DNA of 64,000 bases, taken from Centipeda felix. Lineage in GTDB: Bacteria > Bacillota > Negativicutes > Selenomonadales > Selenomonadaceae. Every line of letters starts with the position of its first letter. The first letter of the stretch is position 1. The notes under the pieces were generated by a model, which ran no database searches, was not told the DNA's origin, and saw nothing but the letters and a program-made list of their open reading frames with translations. This document shows, piece after piece, positions 48,224-54,951 of this stretch. The stretch covers positions 122,328 through 186,327 of the forward strand of contig NZ_LT891957.1 of assembly GCF_900186465.1 (NCBI RefSeq). The letters run 5' to 3'. The position numbers were made by a program, and so were the translations under genes.

Positions 48224-48713
48224 GCTTTTTTTCCCCCTGCATCTCCTCCATCATTGCCTTGGCAATGATCTGAAATGCCGCTTCTGTAATCTCCTCGAGA
48301 CGCTCTGTCTCATGGCGAATGTAGAGGCTGCCGAGAAGCGCCTCAAAGCCCGTACTCGCATGGTAATCCGCGACTGATGCACTGCGCGGCGCATGGCTCT
48401 TCGTATTCCGTGCACGGCGGTAGATCGTTTGCTCCTCCTCGGTCAGCATAGGGGCGATGCCGCGATAGGCGCGTGCCTGCCAGACCGCCGAGACGATCTG
48501 AGCACTGAATGCGTGCAGCCCCTGCACCTGCGTCTGTTCGTACGAGAGGAGACGCATGCGTACATAGAGGTGAAAATATGCGTCGCCAATGTAGGCAAGC
48601 ACGAGCGGATGCACCTGGGCGGCATCCACATGGTCATAGCGCACGGCGGGATTCCCGTCGCCATCCGGCAGGAACATCGTGCGAACGAGCTGCTGAAAGC
48701 GTTCAAACTTCAT
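48213..48713 (-). CDS. mrnC: Mini-ribonuclease III
   Basis: 166 residues from MKFERFQQLV at 48713. The RNase III catalytic fold is present without a dsRNA-binding domain: HPLVLAYIGDAYFHLYVRM holds the first acidic groups and GFEALLGSLYI the second. It matures 23S rRNA ends. It sits directly after cysS (7-base gap). Confidence 0.93.
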   Translation of the reverse strand: MKFERFQQLVRTMFLPDGDGNPAVRYDHVDAAQVHPLVLAYIGDAYFHLYVRMRLLSYEQTQVQGLHAFSAQIVSAVWQARAYRGIAPMLTEEEQTIYRRARNTKSHAPRSASVADYHASTGFEALLGSLYIRHETERLEEITEAAFQIIAKAMMEEMQGEKKHGN

Positions 48714-48720
48714 GCGCTTG

Positions 48721-50151
48721 TTACGCCCGCTTCCAGCGCACACCAGTCGGCGTGTCCTCGATGAGAACGCCCGCCTCCTTCAGCCCGTCGCGAATCTTAT
48801 CCGCAAGTGCCCAGTTCTTCTGTGCACGCGCTTCCTGCCGCAGGGAGATAACAAAGTCCATGATAGCATTAGTCAGGCCATCGTCTGCGGGAGCCACCTC
48901 ATCCTGCTCAAAGATGCCGATGATCCCGGCCATTTTGCGATATGCCTCGGCTGCCATGCGGAAATGTGCCATGTCAAACGCTGCGCCGCGCTCGATCTCC
49001 TGATGATAGCGATTGATCTCCTTCGCGAGCCCAAACATCTGACTGATCGCAAGTGCCGTGTTGAAATCGTCGTCCATCGCTGCATCAAAGTCGCGCAGAA
49101 ATGTCTCCGCCTGCGCGGCAAGATCCGCCGCCGTGTCCGCTGTTCCCTCCCGTTTCAGGAGCTCGTCGATCACGTCATTCGCGCCTTTCAGACGCGCAAG
49201 AGCCGCCTGTGCCTCCTTCAGCCGCTCATCGCTGAAATCGAGCGGGCTGCGGTAATGGGTCTGGAGGATGAAGAAACGGATCACCTCGCCCGGATATTCC
49301 TTCAGAATGTCCTTGACCGTAAAGAAGTTATTCTTCGACTTCGACATTTTCTCGTTGTCGATGGTGATAAAGCCATTGTGCAGCCAGTAACGTGCAAATT
49401 TTACGTCAGCGTCGATGCATGGATCTGCCTGTGCAATTTCATTCTCGTGATGCGGGAAGATCAGATCGCTGCCGCCGCCGTGGAAGTCAAACGCCTCACC
49501 GAGATACTTCACAGACATTGCCGAGCACTCGATGTGCCAGCCGGGGCGTCCCTTCCCCCATGGGCTGTCCCACGAGGGTTCGCCCGGCTTTGCCGCCTTC
49601 CACAGAGCAAAGTCCATCGGATGATGCTTCGTCTCGTTGACCTCGACGCGCGCACCTGCCTCCATGTCGTCAAGACTGCGTCCGCTGAGGCATCCGTACG
49701 GAGCAAATGCCTCGACGCTGTAGTAGACGTCGCCCGCCTCCGTAACGTAGGCATAGCCGCGCTCGATCAGCGTCTCGATCATGCGGATGATGTCGTCCAT
49801 CGTCTCGGAGACGCGCGGGAATACATCGGCACGATGCACATTCAGCGCATCCATCGCCGTGAAGTAGGCGGCGATATAGCGGTCAGAGATCTCCTTCCAC
49901 GTCACGCCCTCGCGATTCGCCGCATGGATGATCTTATCATCCACGTCGGTGAAGTTCTGGATGTAGCGTACGCGATAGCCCTTGTGCGCGAGATAGCGGC
50001 GTATGACATCCCACGTCACAAAGGGACGTGCATTTCCGATGTGCGGGTCATTATAGGGAGTTACACCGCAGCAGTAAATGCTGACCTCGCCCTCACGCAG
50101 CGGGTGAAACTCTTCTTTTTTTCGGGTCATTGTATTGTAAACAGTAATCAT
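48721..50151 (-). CDS. cysS: Cysteinyl-tRNA synthetase
   Basis: 476 residues. [17 protein letters not shown] gives the HIGH motif, and [18 protein letters not shown] the KMSKS loop. Zinc ligands include the N-terminal Cys in YCCG and [10 protein letters not shown] plus HHENE. No T-box leader is seen upstream. It lies between cysE and mrnC. Confidence 0.96.
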
Positions 50152-50160
50152 CGTATCTCC

Positions 50161-50883
50161 TTATTCACGCTTTTCAAGGACATCCAGCCGCGCCTTCAGT
50201 GCGGCGATCTCCTGACGCATCTGTTCGATCATCTCCGCCTCCGGATCGGGCAGCATGTCATGATCGAGGTCAACATCCAGCTCACTCGCGATCTCCTCGG
50301 CACTCTCCTCACAGTCTATGGAGTAGGCGCGTGCCCTCAGCAGCTCTGCCTCTGTACGGACACGCTGTCCCTTCATCACGACAATGCGCCCCGGGATGCC
50401 AACCACTGTGGCATGTGCGGGAACGGGTCGCAGGACAACAGAGCCCGCACCGATCTTGGCGTGGTCGCCCACCGTGAACGAGCCAAGCACCTTGGCACCC
50501 GATGCCACGACGACGTTGTTGCCGAGCGTCGGATGGCGCTTTCCCTTTTCTTTGCCCGTTCCACCGAGGGTCACCCCCTGGTAGAGCGTGACATTCCGCC
50601 CGATCTCCGCCGTCTCCCCGATGACAATGCCTGTCCCGTGGTCGATAAAGAGCCCCTCGCCGATGCTCGCTCCCGGGTGGATCTCAATCCCCGTCAGGAA
50701 ACGCCCGAAGTTCGAGATCAGGCGCGGAATCAGCACCCAGCCGCGCACAAAGAGTGCGTGGGCGATACGGTGCAGCCAGATGGCATGCAGCCCGCCGTAG
50801 CAGAGCACCACCTCGATCACGCTCTGCGCCGCCGGGTCACGCTCAAAAACGACGCGAATATCGCGCCTGATCTGTGCGAACAT
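50161..50883 (-). CDS. cysE: Serine O-acetyltransferase
   Basis: 240 residues from [20 protein letters not shown] at 50883. The hexapeptide-repeat beta helix spans ~60-175 with the active-site [14 protein letters not shown] and [16 protein letters not shown]. It forms O-acetylserine, the precursor of cysteine. The C-terminal tail is a charged coiled coil ([20 protein letters not shown]), longer than in E. coli CysE. The Cys-feedback C-terminal segment is not recognisable. Confidence 0.93.
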
Positions 50884-50962
50884 GAAAGAATCCTCTCTGT
50901 GATAAAACACAAAAAACAACACGGGTAACATCGAAGTTTGTGCCGTGCTTTTTTATTTTATC

Positions 50963-51338: not shown

Positions 51339-51363
51339 CGCATCATTCCTCCCCACCGTGGGT

Positions 51364-54021
51364 TCAGCCCAGACGAACGGTATAGATGGTTCCCTTGTAG
51401 TTCTTCGCCATGAGCGCCTTTTCCGCAGCAACCGTGTACTCAATCGTATTCGGCGACTTCTTGCGGATATAGACACCGACATCGTCGTCGTCACTCACAT
51501 CGCTGTCGTCGATCATGCACCGCACCATGCGCACCTCAGCCGCCTTCATGTTCCCCTTGAGCGCACGCGGTTCCTGCGTGTAGTACAGCTCGAACTCATC
51601 CTCATCCGCATACGTAAAGTAGGTCCATACACCGTAGTCGACGCGTGCATCGATGTCCACATGGAAGCAGCCATGCTCGTTCAGGCTGCCGAGAAAATAC
51701 GGGAACAGCAGCTCGTCATGCGCATCGACATTCTTGTTGATGATCTTGACATCCTTCCCGCCCTTACGGCAGCGGAGCAGACCAAAGGCCACGCCCGTCT
51801 TTCCCGTGCGCAGGCGGTCAAAACCATCGAGGAGCTTTTTGCCCATCTCCTTCTCCTCATGCTCCATACCGAGCGGGAGGTAGAGGATGAAGGGTGCGTC
51901 CTTGCGCTGCATCGTAGACTTTGTATGCTCTTGCTTCTTTCCGTCCGTTTTCTCGCCTGCCGTTTTCGCTGCGGGCGATATGGCGCCGATCTGACGATCA
52001 ATGTACTCATCGAACAGCTTCCGTACGATGGGTGCCTTACAGGAGTTGCCCGCGAGGAAGATGTGTACCTGCCGTACATCACGTCCCTTGAAGGCTGCCG
52101 CCATCGCCTGAAAGAAGTTATCTACGCCGCGCCGTATGCGGTTCTCAAGTGTGCGCTCGAGCTTTTTCACGTCGATGTGCAGGCGGACATCCGCACGGTT
52201 TCCTGCATTCCCCGTTTTTTCCGAGGAGAACAGTGTCATCTCCGTATCGAACGCATCCCCAGCCGCGAACTCCTCATAGCCTGCGCCATGTTCCCAGAAG
52301 GGACGCAGCCGCTCGGCGAGGATCTTGTTGTTGAGATGCGACGCCGCATCGCGCGTCTCGCGCACGAGTGCCTCCGCCCCCGCAAATGTCTCACTCTCGG
52401 GCGGGAGCGCAAATGTGATCTTATGCTGGCGCATCTCGGGCAGATTGTCCTTGAATACCTCGTAGGCAAGCAGCTCGAGGATGTTCTCTCCGCCGAGATA
52501 CATATCGCTGCCGAAACCAAACTGCTCGATGATGAACTTGCGCCGCCCATTCTCCGGTACGGACTCCACGCCGAAGTCAAAGTCCGTCGTGCCGCCGCCG
52601 AAGTCAAACACGCCGTAGGCGACCTCCTCGCCCGCACGCTTCGGCTCAAGCCCGTATGCTTCAAGGGCACTGATCGCGTACGCAGCGGGCTCATTTGCCC
52701 CATCGTACACGCGGAAACGGCGCATCATATCCGCATCGTCGAGAAGAGCCTTCGGCAGCGTCTTTCTGAGTCCGCGCTCAAAGCTCTGGCGGATGTGCTC
52801 GCGTACGCTCTTCTCATAGCCCACGGGGAAGGAGAGGATATAGTCGAGATAGATGCTGCGATGCATATTGTTGATATAGAGTCCGAGATAGTAGGCGTAG
52901 ATCTCGATGGGGTCGAAGCCGCCCGCATCGAGCGGCTGCGTCTCCGCATACGGCTTTACCTCCTGAATGTAGCCGTGCCGATCCTTCAGGATCGGGGAGT
53001 TCGCCGTGTCCCTTGTCCAGCGTTTCAGCTCGCTGAACACGGAGTAGTAGACAGCGATCCCCTCCGTCGACTGACGCTCAAAGATCGCATCCGCCGCCTG
53101 ATGCGACGCGGTCACCTGCGCCCACTCCGTATAGGGGCGTCCCTCGCGTGCACGGTAGAGCTGCTTGAACTTTTCAATATCGATCAGCTCAATCGCCGTC
53201 GGATTCTCATAGTCCTGAATCGTCGGCTCATTGGAGTAGTCGCCCTTGCCGATGCGCAGGAGACGTGCCTCGCGGTCACGGCAGACGACGACCGTACTGC
53301 GCGTACCGAAGTCGATCGCGCAGGTTCCGTTCATGATCACGTCCATCTGGGGCGGACGTGCCACGAGGAAATCCGTCGGCGGCAGACGCAGACAGACGCT
53401 GTCCTCACGCCCCTCATCCGTCAGTTCCTCGTAGAGATCCCAATGCCCCAGGCTCATATCCGTCAGGATGCGCTCCGCATAGGGCTGGATATTGGCGCGG
53501 ACATGGTCCGTATACAGGAGAGATTTCTTGAACGGCTCGATGGAAAAATCGAGGGCAACCGAGCCCGTATTGATCGCCGTCTCAATAACGCTCTGGATGT
53601 CAAAGGTCGTGCCGAAGATCGTCTCCTTGAACCGCCCTGCCACCACATCCTCGGCAAAACGCTCATGGTCAAAGATGAGCTGATCCTCCTCGATGCGGAT
53701 GTAGGCACGGATCTTCGGATACTCCGCCACCAGACGGCGCAGACGCTCCTCCTGCTCGTGCGAGACATCCTCGGCGTTGAACTCATCCGAAATCCATTTC
53801 AGGAAGCTCTGTGCGCCGCTCGTCTCCATCCCAAGGGAGAACATATACTTCTTATTGACAATGGAGGCTGTCTCATCTTTGAGCGCAGCAATATCTCTGC
53901 CGATTTGCTTTCCAAAACGAAGCGTACTCTCGTAAAAGAATTGCCGAAATGCGTTCTTTTTCAGATGTAAGCTGCGCATGAGCACCGGACGCGCCGTCGC
54001 CTGCACCTCTTTTCGCGTCAT
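51364..54021 (-). CDS. Large Hsp70-like (actin-fold) ATPase with unique N-terminal domain
   Basis: 885 residues. From residue 236 the actin/Hsp70 nucleotide-binding motifs appear in order: phosphate-1 AIDFGTRSTVVV, connect-1 NEPAAYAI (443-450), phosphate-2 GVFDFGGGTTDFDFG (470-484) and adenosine IFLAGNSCKAPIV (654-666). Residues 1-235 form a separate mostly helical domain of unknown kind. A charged linker (~680-715) and a ~150-residue C-terminal beta-rich region replace the usual substrate-binding domain. No J-domain or GrpE partner is nearby. It is probably a cytoplasmic ATP-driven scaffold or chaperone; function is unknown. It starts at ATG 54021 and is followed by comFB. Confidence 0.8.
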   Translation of the reverse strand: MTRKEVQATARPVLMRSLHLKKNAFRQFFYESTLRFGKQIGRDIAALKDETASIVNKKYMFSLGMETSGAQSFLKWISDEFNAEDVSHEQEERLRRLVAEYPKIRAYIRIEEDQLIFDHERFAEDVVAGRFKETIFGTTFDIQSVIETAINTGSVALDFSIEPFKKSLLYTDHVRANIQPYAERILTDMSLGHWDLYEELTDEGREDSVCLRLPPTDFLVARPPQMDVIMNGTCAIDFGTRSTVVVCRDREARLLRIGKGDYSNEPTIQDYENPTAIELIDIEKFKQLYRAREGRPYTEWAQVTASHQAADAIFERQSTEGIAVYYSVFSELKRWTRDTANSPILKDRHGYIQEVKPYAETQPLDAGGFDPIEIYAYYLGLYINNMHRSIYLDYILSFPVGYEKSVREHIRQSFERGLRKTLPKALLDDADMMRRFRVYDGANEPAAYAISALEAYGLEPKRAGEEVAYGVFDFGGGTTDFDFGVESVPENGRRKFIIEQFGFGSDMYLGGENILELLAYEVFKDNLPEMRQHKITFALPPESETFAGAEALVRETRDAASHLNNKILAERLRPFWEHGAGYEEFAAGDAFDTEMTLFSSEKTGNAGNRADVRLHIDVKKLERTLENRIRRGVDNFFQAMAAAFKGRDVRQVHIFLAGNSCKAPIVRKLFDEYIDRQIGAISPAAKTAGEKTDGKKQEHTKSTMQRKDAPFILYLPLGMEHEEKEMGKKLLDGFDRLRTGKTGVAFGLLRCRKGGKDVKIINKNVDAHDELLFPYFLGSLNEHGCFHVDIDARVDYGVWTYFTYADEDEFELYYTQEPRALKGNMKAAEVRMVRCMIDDSDVSDDDDVGVYIRKKSPNTIEYTVAAEKALMAKNYKGTIYTVRLG

Positions 54022-54103: not shown

Positions 54104-54129
54104 AAAAAACCCCGCGATATTTCGCGGGG
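54104..54129 (-). terminator. Terminator after tRNA-Arg
   Basis: CCCCGCGA and TTCGCGGGG stem, followed on the minus strand by TTTTTT. It lies 14 bases after the tRNA 3' end. Confidence 0.9.
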
Positions 54130-54142
54130 TGATGGATCATCA

Positions 54143-54217
54143 TGGTGCGCTCGGCGGGAGTCGAACCCACGCTTTCAGCTCCGGAGGCTAACGTCCTATC
54201 CACTGGACTACGAGCGC
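54143..54217 (-). tRNA. tRNA-Arg (anticodon CCG)
   Basis: 75 bases including an encoded CCA. The acceptor arms GCGCTCG and CGAGCGC pair fully; D stem GTCC/GGAC; anticodon stem TTAGC/GCTGA around CTCCGGA, giving anticodon CCG for CGG codons; T arm GTGGG/CCCGC around TTCGACT. Confidence 0.95.
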
Positions 54218-54249: not shown

Positions 54250-54951
54250 CTATTTGTCGATATTTTTTTCTTGCTCCGCGCGTGCGCCATCCTCCTCATC
54301 GGCACGATGTGCCGCCGAGATGGGTGCAAAATAGTCGCGAACCGCAATGATATCGTCCTCGATGAAGAGTGCTACAGGCGATTCACGCAGCATGACGAGC
54401 TCCAAAAGGCGTGCCTGCGCCGCAGCATCCTTCTCCTTCATCGCTGCAGACTCGGCGGCTGCACGCGTCAGCGTCACTGCCTTCTGCTGCGCCGCCGCAT
54501 AGTCATCGGTCTTGCTGAGAATGGACGCGAGATGGTCGTAGACATCATCCGACAGTTCCAGCGGAGGTGCATTTTTCTCGATGCGGCTGCGCTGTTCCTG
54601 CATGTCCTGTTCGAGTGACGAAAGCCGCTCGCGCGTCACCGACAGGCGTACATTCCCCGCCTTGGCATCGGAGAGGATCTGATGATAGCGCGTCCAGCCG
54701 CGGTCGAGCTCTGCGACCTGCTTCTGATACGCCGCCCACCACGGCATGAAGTAGTCCTGATCCCGCGCAATCGCGGCGCGCTGCTCCTGCGTCAGCGGAG
54801 CAGGAGCACGCTCCGGCAGCTGCATGTGGACAACGATGGCACAGAGTACTGCAGCAAGCGCGACAAAGACAATAAAGATCCGATGCGGCAGATAGCGAAA
54901 CAGCAATATGAGCAGCAGCAGGACAAGGACGACAAGAGCATAGATCAGCAT
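54250..54951 (-). CDS. Membrane-anchored protein of unknown function
   Basis: 233 residues. Two hydrophobic helices at 1-17 and 25-43 are followed by a long, Ala- and charge-rich helical region with coiled-coil character (LSSLEQDMQEQRSRIEKN). I recognise no family. Its start overlaps the Crp/Fnr gene end by 7 bases, so it is probably made together with that regulator. Confidence 0.6.
   Translation of the reverse strand: MLIYALVVLVLLLLILLFRYLPHRIFIVFVALAAVLCAIVVHMQLPERAPAPLTQEQRAAIARDQDYFMPWWAAYQKQVAELDRGWTRYHQILSDAKAGNVRLSVTRERLSSLEQDMQEQRSRIEKNAPPLELSDDVYDHLASILSKTDDYAAAQQKAVTLTRAAAESAAMKEKDAAAQARLLELVMLRESPVALFIEDDIIAVRDYFAPISAAHRADEEDGARAEQEKNIDK

Follow-up and report, generated by a model that had tools for sequence, protein, structure and literature searches.

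The stretch of 64,000 nucleotides from Centipeda felix analysed here (the window) encodes an Hsp70-like protein of 885 residues, which its listing of open reading frames (ORFs) places on the minus strand at 51364-54021. The protein can be assigned to the Hsp70 superfamily with high confidence, and this identity is firm. As an overall reading, we consider it moderately likely that the protein is a divergent Hsp70 ATPase without the helical lid, which came from a multi-gene cassette and has been kept alone in its genus.

An Hsp70-type ATPase with a predicted lidless substrate domain

The counterparts of DnaK D8, T11, K70, E171, D194, G196-198, T199 and D201, which we take to be the numbers of the catalytic positions and which were assigned via the alignments, were identical in all 41 aligned rows. 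The Hsp70-type nucleotide motifs are thus kept, as had been claimed in a preliminary description of this DNA. Because these residues are invariant, ATP hydrolysis is expected for the 885-residue protein. The predicted structure gave a mean predicted local distance difference test score (pLDDT) of 85.8 and a predicted template modelling score of 0.85. When the nucleotide-binding domain (NBD) alone was aligned to Hsp70 structures, VIA-align returned Z scores of 20-21 with a root mean square deviation (rmsd) of 3.2-4.5 over 343-374 residues, and hhalign matched the NBD to the DnaK NBD profile with a probability of 96 (E=1.7e-9).

Although the Hsp70 fold and the catalytic residues are present, the gene scores under the cut-offs of the Hsp70 models and is therefore a trap for annotation. 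The Pfam model HSP70 (PF00012) gave 12.1 bits, under its cut-off of 20.6. The best NCBIfam matches were HscA (19.4 bits, cut-off 620) and DnaK (15.7 bits, cut-off 822.55), both far under cut-off; DnaK TIGR02350 accordingly reached 15.7 of 822.55 bits, and HscA TIGR01991 18.7 of 708.55 bits.

The protein had been described as having no substrate domain, the usual one being replaced. This is probably incorrect, since two structure models put about 125 C-terminal residues on the beta part of the Hsp70 substrate-binding domain (SBD-beta), with only the lid absent; sequence profiles are silent. Of the 50 VIA-align rows listed, 15 extend to residue 884 or 885 over the SBD-beta region of Hsp70 chains, DnaK, BiP and Ssb among them. 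The second model, that of relative L041 (998 aa, pLDDT 86.1), behaves likewise, with rows reaching residue 997 or 998 across SBD-beta. The SBD-alpha helical lid was not found in the model of our protein, which stops at the beta-sandwich. From own position 756 onward, 40 of the 41 aligned rows contain 122-135 residues and one (L072) contains 255. Judged from these models, the C-terminal ~125 residues are very probably a lidless SBD-beta.

Regions that contact partners or join the domains in DnaK are changed. The DnaK interdomain linker is DVLLLD, and the linker region of the 885-residue protein reads DVKIIN, not the DnaK motif. DnaK R167 is a J-domain contact residue; in a register taken from the alignment and not from a complex structure, its counterpart is D440 in five genus rows and is variable elsewhere. 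The idea that the genus copy had moved closer to DnaK, as might follow a switch to housekeeping partners, was rejected: in the 24 NBD columns that differ, it matched DnaK in none, whereas the other relatives did so in six. This residue comparison lends no support to the use of housekeeping GrpE, a use that we infer.

The gene is present in all 14 genus genomes, and the 13 other copies are 86-94% identical to our copy and contain no internal stops. Selenomonas flueggei ATCC 43531, with a protein 93% identical, is among the nearest named relatives. Within the genus (87 usable of 91 pairs), the median pairwise nonsynonymous divergence (dN) was 0.055, the synonymous divergence (dS) was 1.21 and dN/dS was 0.044, a ratio qualified by the fact that dS above 1 is close to saturation. 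The loosest of five stretches tested, residues 681-715, gave a dN/dS of 0.30 and is also poorly ordered in the predicted structure. The plus strand across the gene is likewise open (870 aa, 51358-53970), and a second long antisense frame of 738 aa lies at 48712-50928; both are taken as by-products of codon use. Because all 14 genomes keep the minus frame and dN/dS is low, the minus frame is the real gene, and it is under strong purifying selection in the genus.

A recurrent partner operon in the relatives

Scanning of the contig database yielded 48 loci. Nine of them come from the genus (Selenomonas, Centipeda); the 39 non-genus loci are labelled mostly as Selenomonadaceae/Selenomonadales or Clostridia, together with two Ghiorsea/Mariprofundaceae metagenome-assembled genomes (MAGs) and one short Cloacimonadota contig. 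The gene was detected in 20 of 100 related genomes (the 14 of the genus, G020, G026, G051, G053, G093 and, marginally at E=9e-4, G083) and, at E<=1e-30, in 6 of 398 genomes of a phylum-wide sample.

Clustering of the neighbours revealed a recurrent gene order: a GrpE-like coiled coil, the Hsp70-like protein, a HerA/FtsK-superfamily ATPase, a small helical protein beginning with a glycine/serine-rich part, and often a further small protein. In profile searches, a GrpE-like gene was found in 28 of the 39 non-genus loci and a HerA-like gene in 15 of the 39, while neither was found in the 9 genus loci; many of the positives helped to build the models, and some contigs are truncated. The reported absence of GrpE neighbours is therefore true of the own locus and untrue of many relatives. 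The suggestion of a dedicated ATP-driven machine fits this operon of the relatives, but the genus copy stands alone and apparently keeps its substrate domain.

The GrpE-like protein at L060:6705-7460 matched PF01025 over residues 97-250 with E=0.0048, under the cut-off (17.0 of 25.8 bits). Compared with GrpE, the GrpE-like profile gave an hhalign probability of 85.5 (E=5.7e-6, 45 columns), whereas four unrelated profile pairs gave 0.1%. The C-terminal end of the profile also matched the C-terminus of our genome's own housekeeping GrpE, at E=0.16. The partner gene appears to encode a GrpE-type C-terminal beta domain together with a coiled coil. The HerA/FtsK ATPase, about 1,000-1,100 aa long with a serine-rich middle, matched PF01935 above the cut-off (E=2.5e-6). 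Its match to NF033849 had E=5.9e-30, but at 103 of 650 bits, and in PADLOC it matched mad8 (E=2.1e-19) and HerA (E=7.2e-17).

In the 14 genus genomes, no HerA-like gene was found save for one distant match in G007, and the helical partner protein was found in none. The GrpE-like profile gave weak coiled-coil matches in 7 of the 14, none of them covering the GrpE-type end.

Known families and mobile elements were also considered as sources. A known anti-phage family was rejected, since no PADLOC model matches the Hsp70-like protein, and so was a phage origin, as the 885-residue protein had no match in 50,697 phage records. We regard nine weak viral-contig matches to NBD stretches as common proteins of Hsp70-like type or actin fold. 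Among 72,556 plasmid records, two matched the L060 relative, in neither case over 80% of the query.

Probable loss of the front block and of the partners in the genus

The preliminary description spoke of a long new domain of about 235 residues ahead of the ATPase. We found 229 residues there, in good agreement with that length; the genus form is nevertheless short, as 281-398 residues precede the ATPase in the 36 non-genus rows of the alignment. At one junction (residues 56-72), five aligned genus proteins have 15 intervening residues versus 111-174 in 36 of 36 non-genus rows. The alignment suggests that the genus N-terminal domain is a shortened form of an older one. In the model of our protein, residues 1-229 reach pLDDT values of 75-94 per ten-residue block, except residues 1-10 (46) and 51-70 (59-66). 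The structure comparisons hardly probed the N-terminal parts of either model.

The block missing from the genus is all-beta in the predicted model of L041. Only the two tandem copies on an Acinetobacter piscicola plasmid showed a match to Lcl_C in this block, a weak one (E=1.8e-6 and 1e-6) that scored 28.6 and 29.5 bits against a curated cut-off of 34.9. Lcl_C has a C-type-lectin-like fold, and the all-beta blocks of other relatives may share it. The copy in a Ghiorsea MAG (L058, 7068-10109) instead carries WD40 repeats at the front (E=3.3e-85) and adjoins GrpE-like and HerA-like genes. The front blocks of ten Bacillota relatives gave no convincing Pfam match (best E 0.06), and three longer pieces likewise gave none. 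A variable front on a constant switch could be a recognition module. DUF6273 was rejected as a part of the Hsp70-like protein, its sole occurrence being in a distinct small gene nearby (L070).

In a maximum-likelihood tree of 45 rows, the genus rows group together (100/100) and are the sister of nine rows, with a joint branch of 100/99; eight of these nine sister rows have a GrpE-like gene. The genus and its sisters lie inside a 23-row, mostly Selenomonadaceae clade (100/97) in which GrpE-plus-HerA, GrpE-only and HerA-only loci are mixed. The intervening fork is weaker (88/74), and some long branches, all outside this clade, were flagged. Partner labels on the tree need 17 changes (minimum 3), therefore partners come and go often. 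Because it is nested among operon-bearing relatives, the genus copy reads as an orphan, and it is quite likely that it descends from an operon-bearing lineage and has lost both the partners and the front block. Such losses are the simplest reading of the sequence tree.

Genomic neighbourhood of the gene

The features of the gene and its surroundings are listed in Table 1.

Table 1. Coordinates of the Hsp70-like gene, its parts and adjacent features in the window.
Feature	Position	Strand	Basis or remark
Hsp70-like gene	51364..54021	-	885 aa; ATG start with AGGAG upstream; ORF calls, genus conservation, dN/dS
N-terminal region, residues 1-229	53335..54021	-	mostly helical in predicted model
Putative deletion junction, residues 56-72	53806..53856	-	alignment of genus versus non-genus rows
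Hsp70 NBD, residues 230-756	51754..53334	-	VIA-align, hhalign, catalytic residues
Variable low-confidence insertion, residues 684-731	51829..51972	-	near NBD end; pLDDT <50 at 684-704 and 723-731
C-terminal beta-sandwich resembling Hsp70 SBD-beta, residues 757-885	51367..51753	-	predicted structure
comFB, 97 aa	51045..51338	-	Pfam PF10719, E=1.3e-21; starts 25 bases past the Hsp70-like stop
tRNA-Arg(CCG)	54143..54217	-	ARAGORN; same place in 9/9 named genus loci
Terminator-like hairpin with T run	54109..54130	-	between tRNA-Arg and Hsp70-like gene

The neighbouring comFB gene was correctly recognised in the preliminary description. It directly follows the Hsp70-like gene in 14 of 14 genus genomes, at a spacing of about 23-30 bases. 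The tRNA-Arg(CCG) gene ends 121 bases ahead of the Hsp70-like gene, and each of the 9 named genus loci keeps tRNA, Hsp70-like gene and comFB side by side, also where a different gene comes next (L028, L030). Outside the genus, comFB at 34-47% identity was found in 31 of 46 genomes searched, few of which have the Hsp70-like gene. At ten non-genus comFB loci, nine from genomes without a detected Hsp70-like gene and one (G026) with such a gene elsewhere, nine further window genes were looked for, and not one lay in the stretch fetched, at most ~5 kb on each side. Co-occurrence with comFB holds throughout the genus; outside it, no comFB match at E<=1e-4 was found in the 46 loci of non-genus or distant relatives (L034-L077 as used, plus L163 and L164), which are of limited length. 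As far as seen, the pairing is a genus-level feature.

An integration scar at the tRNA was rejected, since the last 20 bases of tRNA-Arg had no second copy in the window with four mismatches allowed. Terminator-like sites in the region scanned numbered 4, versus a chance expectation of 2.6. All 9 named genus loci also keep a 233-aa ORF with a hydrophobic N-terminus (54250-54951, minus strand), for which the Pfam scan gave no match above its cut-off.

Individual relatives in conflict or secretion contexts

A few relatives lie beside genes of conflict or secretion; these contexts of toxins, immunity and secretion are individual cases and not a statistical enrichment. In L076:4751-18990, GrpE-like and Hsp70-like genes stand upstream of an island of injection-type toxin genes, which a WYL regulator also precedes. 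The island encodes a DUF4280-AHH-like nuclease, Imm11 and proteins of Hcp-like and VgrG-like type; a PAAR-like gene was counted with the VgrG-like and Hcp-like injection-type genes. In L077:3921-17001, the GrpE-like and Hsp70-like pair precedes similar-looking genes, only one of which was scanned, and the locus also contains the beginning of another HSP70 gene, of the ordinary kind. L076 and L077 are from the same-family genomes G020 and G051, respectively. In L049, a dynamin-type GTPase adjoins the Hsp70-like gene. For the 409-aa neighbour in L035, a reverse transcriptase of a diversity-generating retroelement was considered and dropped, as by eye it does not resemble one.

Two plasmids carry related genes. 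Acinetobacter piscicola plasmid pYH12207-1 (L163:1166-17033) has, next to an integrase gene, genes for a WYL regulator, a HerA-like ATPase, the helical protein, a GrpE-like protein, two Hsp70-like proteins in tandem, HEPN and dynamin. In Helicobacter plasmid pNHP190012_1 (L164:4837-13810), the Hsp70-like gene is split in two ORFs; its neighbours are a WXG100-like gene (under cut-off), a WHH nuclease, an SMI1-type gene, an FtsK ATPase and a coiled-coil gene that matches the GrpE-like model weakly (E=3e-5). Within the genus itself, G007 contains a second, distant Hsp70-like gene (L073:4615-12523) of 933 aa, 29% identical to our protein. It is accompanied by a coiled-coil protein and, by eye, by a radical SAM-looking protein and membrane proteins.

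Proposed mechanism and alternative explanations

The ancestral element would be a mobile cassette that encodes a GrpE-like factor, the Hsp70-like protein, an ATPase of the HerA/FtsK superfamily (EccE3/VirB4-HerA-like), a small helical protein rich in glycine and serine, and one more small protein. Its variable N-terminal block would bind a trigger or a partner, whereupon ATP and the dedicated GrpE-like factor would switch the Hsp70 clamp. As for the client and the direction of action, the clamp might hold a toxin-like effector or the helical protein, or might pass its client to the pump ATPase. The genus ancestor would then have lost the front block and the partner genes, the core Hsp70 being retained under purifying selection. 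The genus protein is probably a stand-alone, ATP-driven holdase or clamp that works with housekeeping GrpE. About this mechanism, which is a proposal, we are almost evenly divided and lean slightly to doubt.

Several observations weigh against the reading of a lidless clamp from a GrpE-bearing cassette. Taken alone, the C-terminal part gave no significant hhalign match to SBD-beta in local and global modes (probability <=0.2%), the two-domain structural alignments have an rmsd of 6-9 A, and the SBD-containing chains 2v7y, 5obu and 5obv aligned across the NBD only. Several coiled-coil families outscore GrpE for a single GrpE-like sequence, and the best own-genome match of the GrpE-like profile is another coiled coil (E=0.008). 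The GrpE-like gene is also not nearby in several relatives (e.g. L061, L062, L064 and L066), so partner loss is not specific to the genus, and the presence labels on the tree depend on contig ends. WYL regulators were detected in 3 of 55 loci, the very three that served to build the model, so a defence role is no general rule of context. PADLOC returned no family for the 885-residue protein or for the L060 relative. The ATPase, chaperone and defence roles of the members are predictions from sequence and structure.

One alternative takes the protein as a competence/pilus or second-messenger factor, co-transcribed with ComFB and acting jointly with it, e.g. to remodel part of a pilus or of the DNA-uptake apparatus in response to cyclic dinucleotides. 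It is worth testing because ComFB in cyanobacteria is a cyclic dinucleotide receptor (PMC12313861). The closeness of the two genes in all 14 genus genomes, also where the gene past comFB differs, speaks for it. The surface or competence link raised in the preliminary description would likewise derive from that adjacency. Most non-genus genomes with comFB have no Hsp70-like gene, and ten such loci lack the other window genes; together with the absence of comFB matches from the 46 loci of relatives, this makes the alternative unlikely in our judgement. A general stress chaperone, i.e. a diverged DnaK/HscA-type paralogue that simply folds proteins, would agree with the intact catalytic residues in an Hsp70 NBD, with the SBD-beta-like domain and with HscA and DnaK as top NCBIfam matches. 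Those scores are far under the cut-offs, however, the lid is missing and the R167 counterpart is not conserved. DnaK itself is present in 13 of 13 genus genomes searched, and genes for a GrpE-like protein and a pump ATPase lie near many relatives, toxin genes near a few. We hold a mere folding role to be improbable.

The protein might instead be a structural or assembly Hsp70 akin to the closterovirus HSP70 homologue (HSP70h), which builds or anchors a filament or secretion structure and does not fold clients. The fold of relative L041 matches closterovirus HSP70h, and L076 with its VgrG-like, Hcp-like and PAAR-like genes and L164 with its WXG100-like and FtsK genes are in keeping with such a role. 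The HSP70h match, however, merely reflects the common Hsp70 fold, and the recognised neighbours in the window encode no such structure; we regard this possibility as very improbable.

Comparison with known systems and implications

The protein resembles the Hsp70 superfamily (DnaK, BiP, Ssb, HscA; PF00012) in its NBD fold, its catalytic residues and a beta-sandwich at the place of SBD-beta. It differs by its scores under the cut-offs, the missing SBD-alpha lid, the 229-residue N-terminal domain and the changed linker. Closterovirus HSP70h has a similarly divergent Hsp70 fold, but it is viral and the match is one of general fold only.

In the GAP1-N2 GTPase-centred conflict systems described by Kaur et al. 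(2020; PMC7159879), HSP70 and GrpE genes share an operon, and a subset is reported to have Hsp70 without the peptide-binding domain. The likeness is thus an Hsp70 and GrpE operon in a predicted conflict system; in contrast, the loci here have a HerA-type ATPase in place of the GTPase core and a variable N-terminal block on the Hsp70. A dynamin-type GTPase lies by the Hsp70-like gene in L049 and is also annotated on the Acinetobacter plasmid, although no search was aimed at GAP1. The CoCoNuT paper (PMC11090510) describes Hsp70-like NBD/SBD units that belong to a defence system, and also an EccE3-VirB4/HerA ATPase that bears an insertion of variable length and is paired with a small helical protein. 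By description only, this pair resembles the HerA-like and helical genes here. According to that paper, CnuD of CoCoNuT contains HEAT-like repeats, its Walker A-like motifs are degenerate, and its companions are of the McrBC type. While CnuD has degenerate ATPase motifs, the catalytic residues here are invariant in 41 of 41 rows. The Pfam scan gave no HEAT match in the 885-residue protein, and no McrB, McrC or HEAT families appeared in the Pfam tables, which covered part of the neighbours. A GrpE-like/Hsp70-like/HerA-like operon with an exchangeable front block is not described in the parts of PMC7159879 and PMC11090510 that were read, and the literature searches made did not bring up such an operon.

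On a wider and tentative interpretation, which we find possible and would not yet call probable, these loci constitute an undescribed, chaperone-switched conflict or secretion cassette. Its Hsp70 would bear an exchangeable recognition block at the front, of Lcl_C-like or WD40 type, and would work with a dedicated GrpE-like factor and a pump of the EccE3/VirB4-HerA type; the cassette would spread across phyla, also on plasmids. The Selenomonas gene would be its domesticated core, which keeps the ATP-clamp function with housekeeping partners. If this is true, an Hsp70 together with its exchange factor would switch a mobile module of conflict or secretion; the recognition part would be swapped at the front, and a pump ATPase would provide the output. 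A single bacterial genus would then illustrate how a module of this kind gets stripped down and retained.

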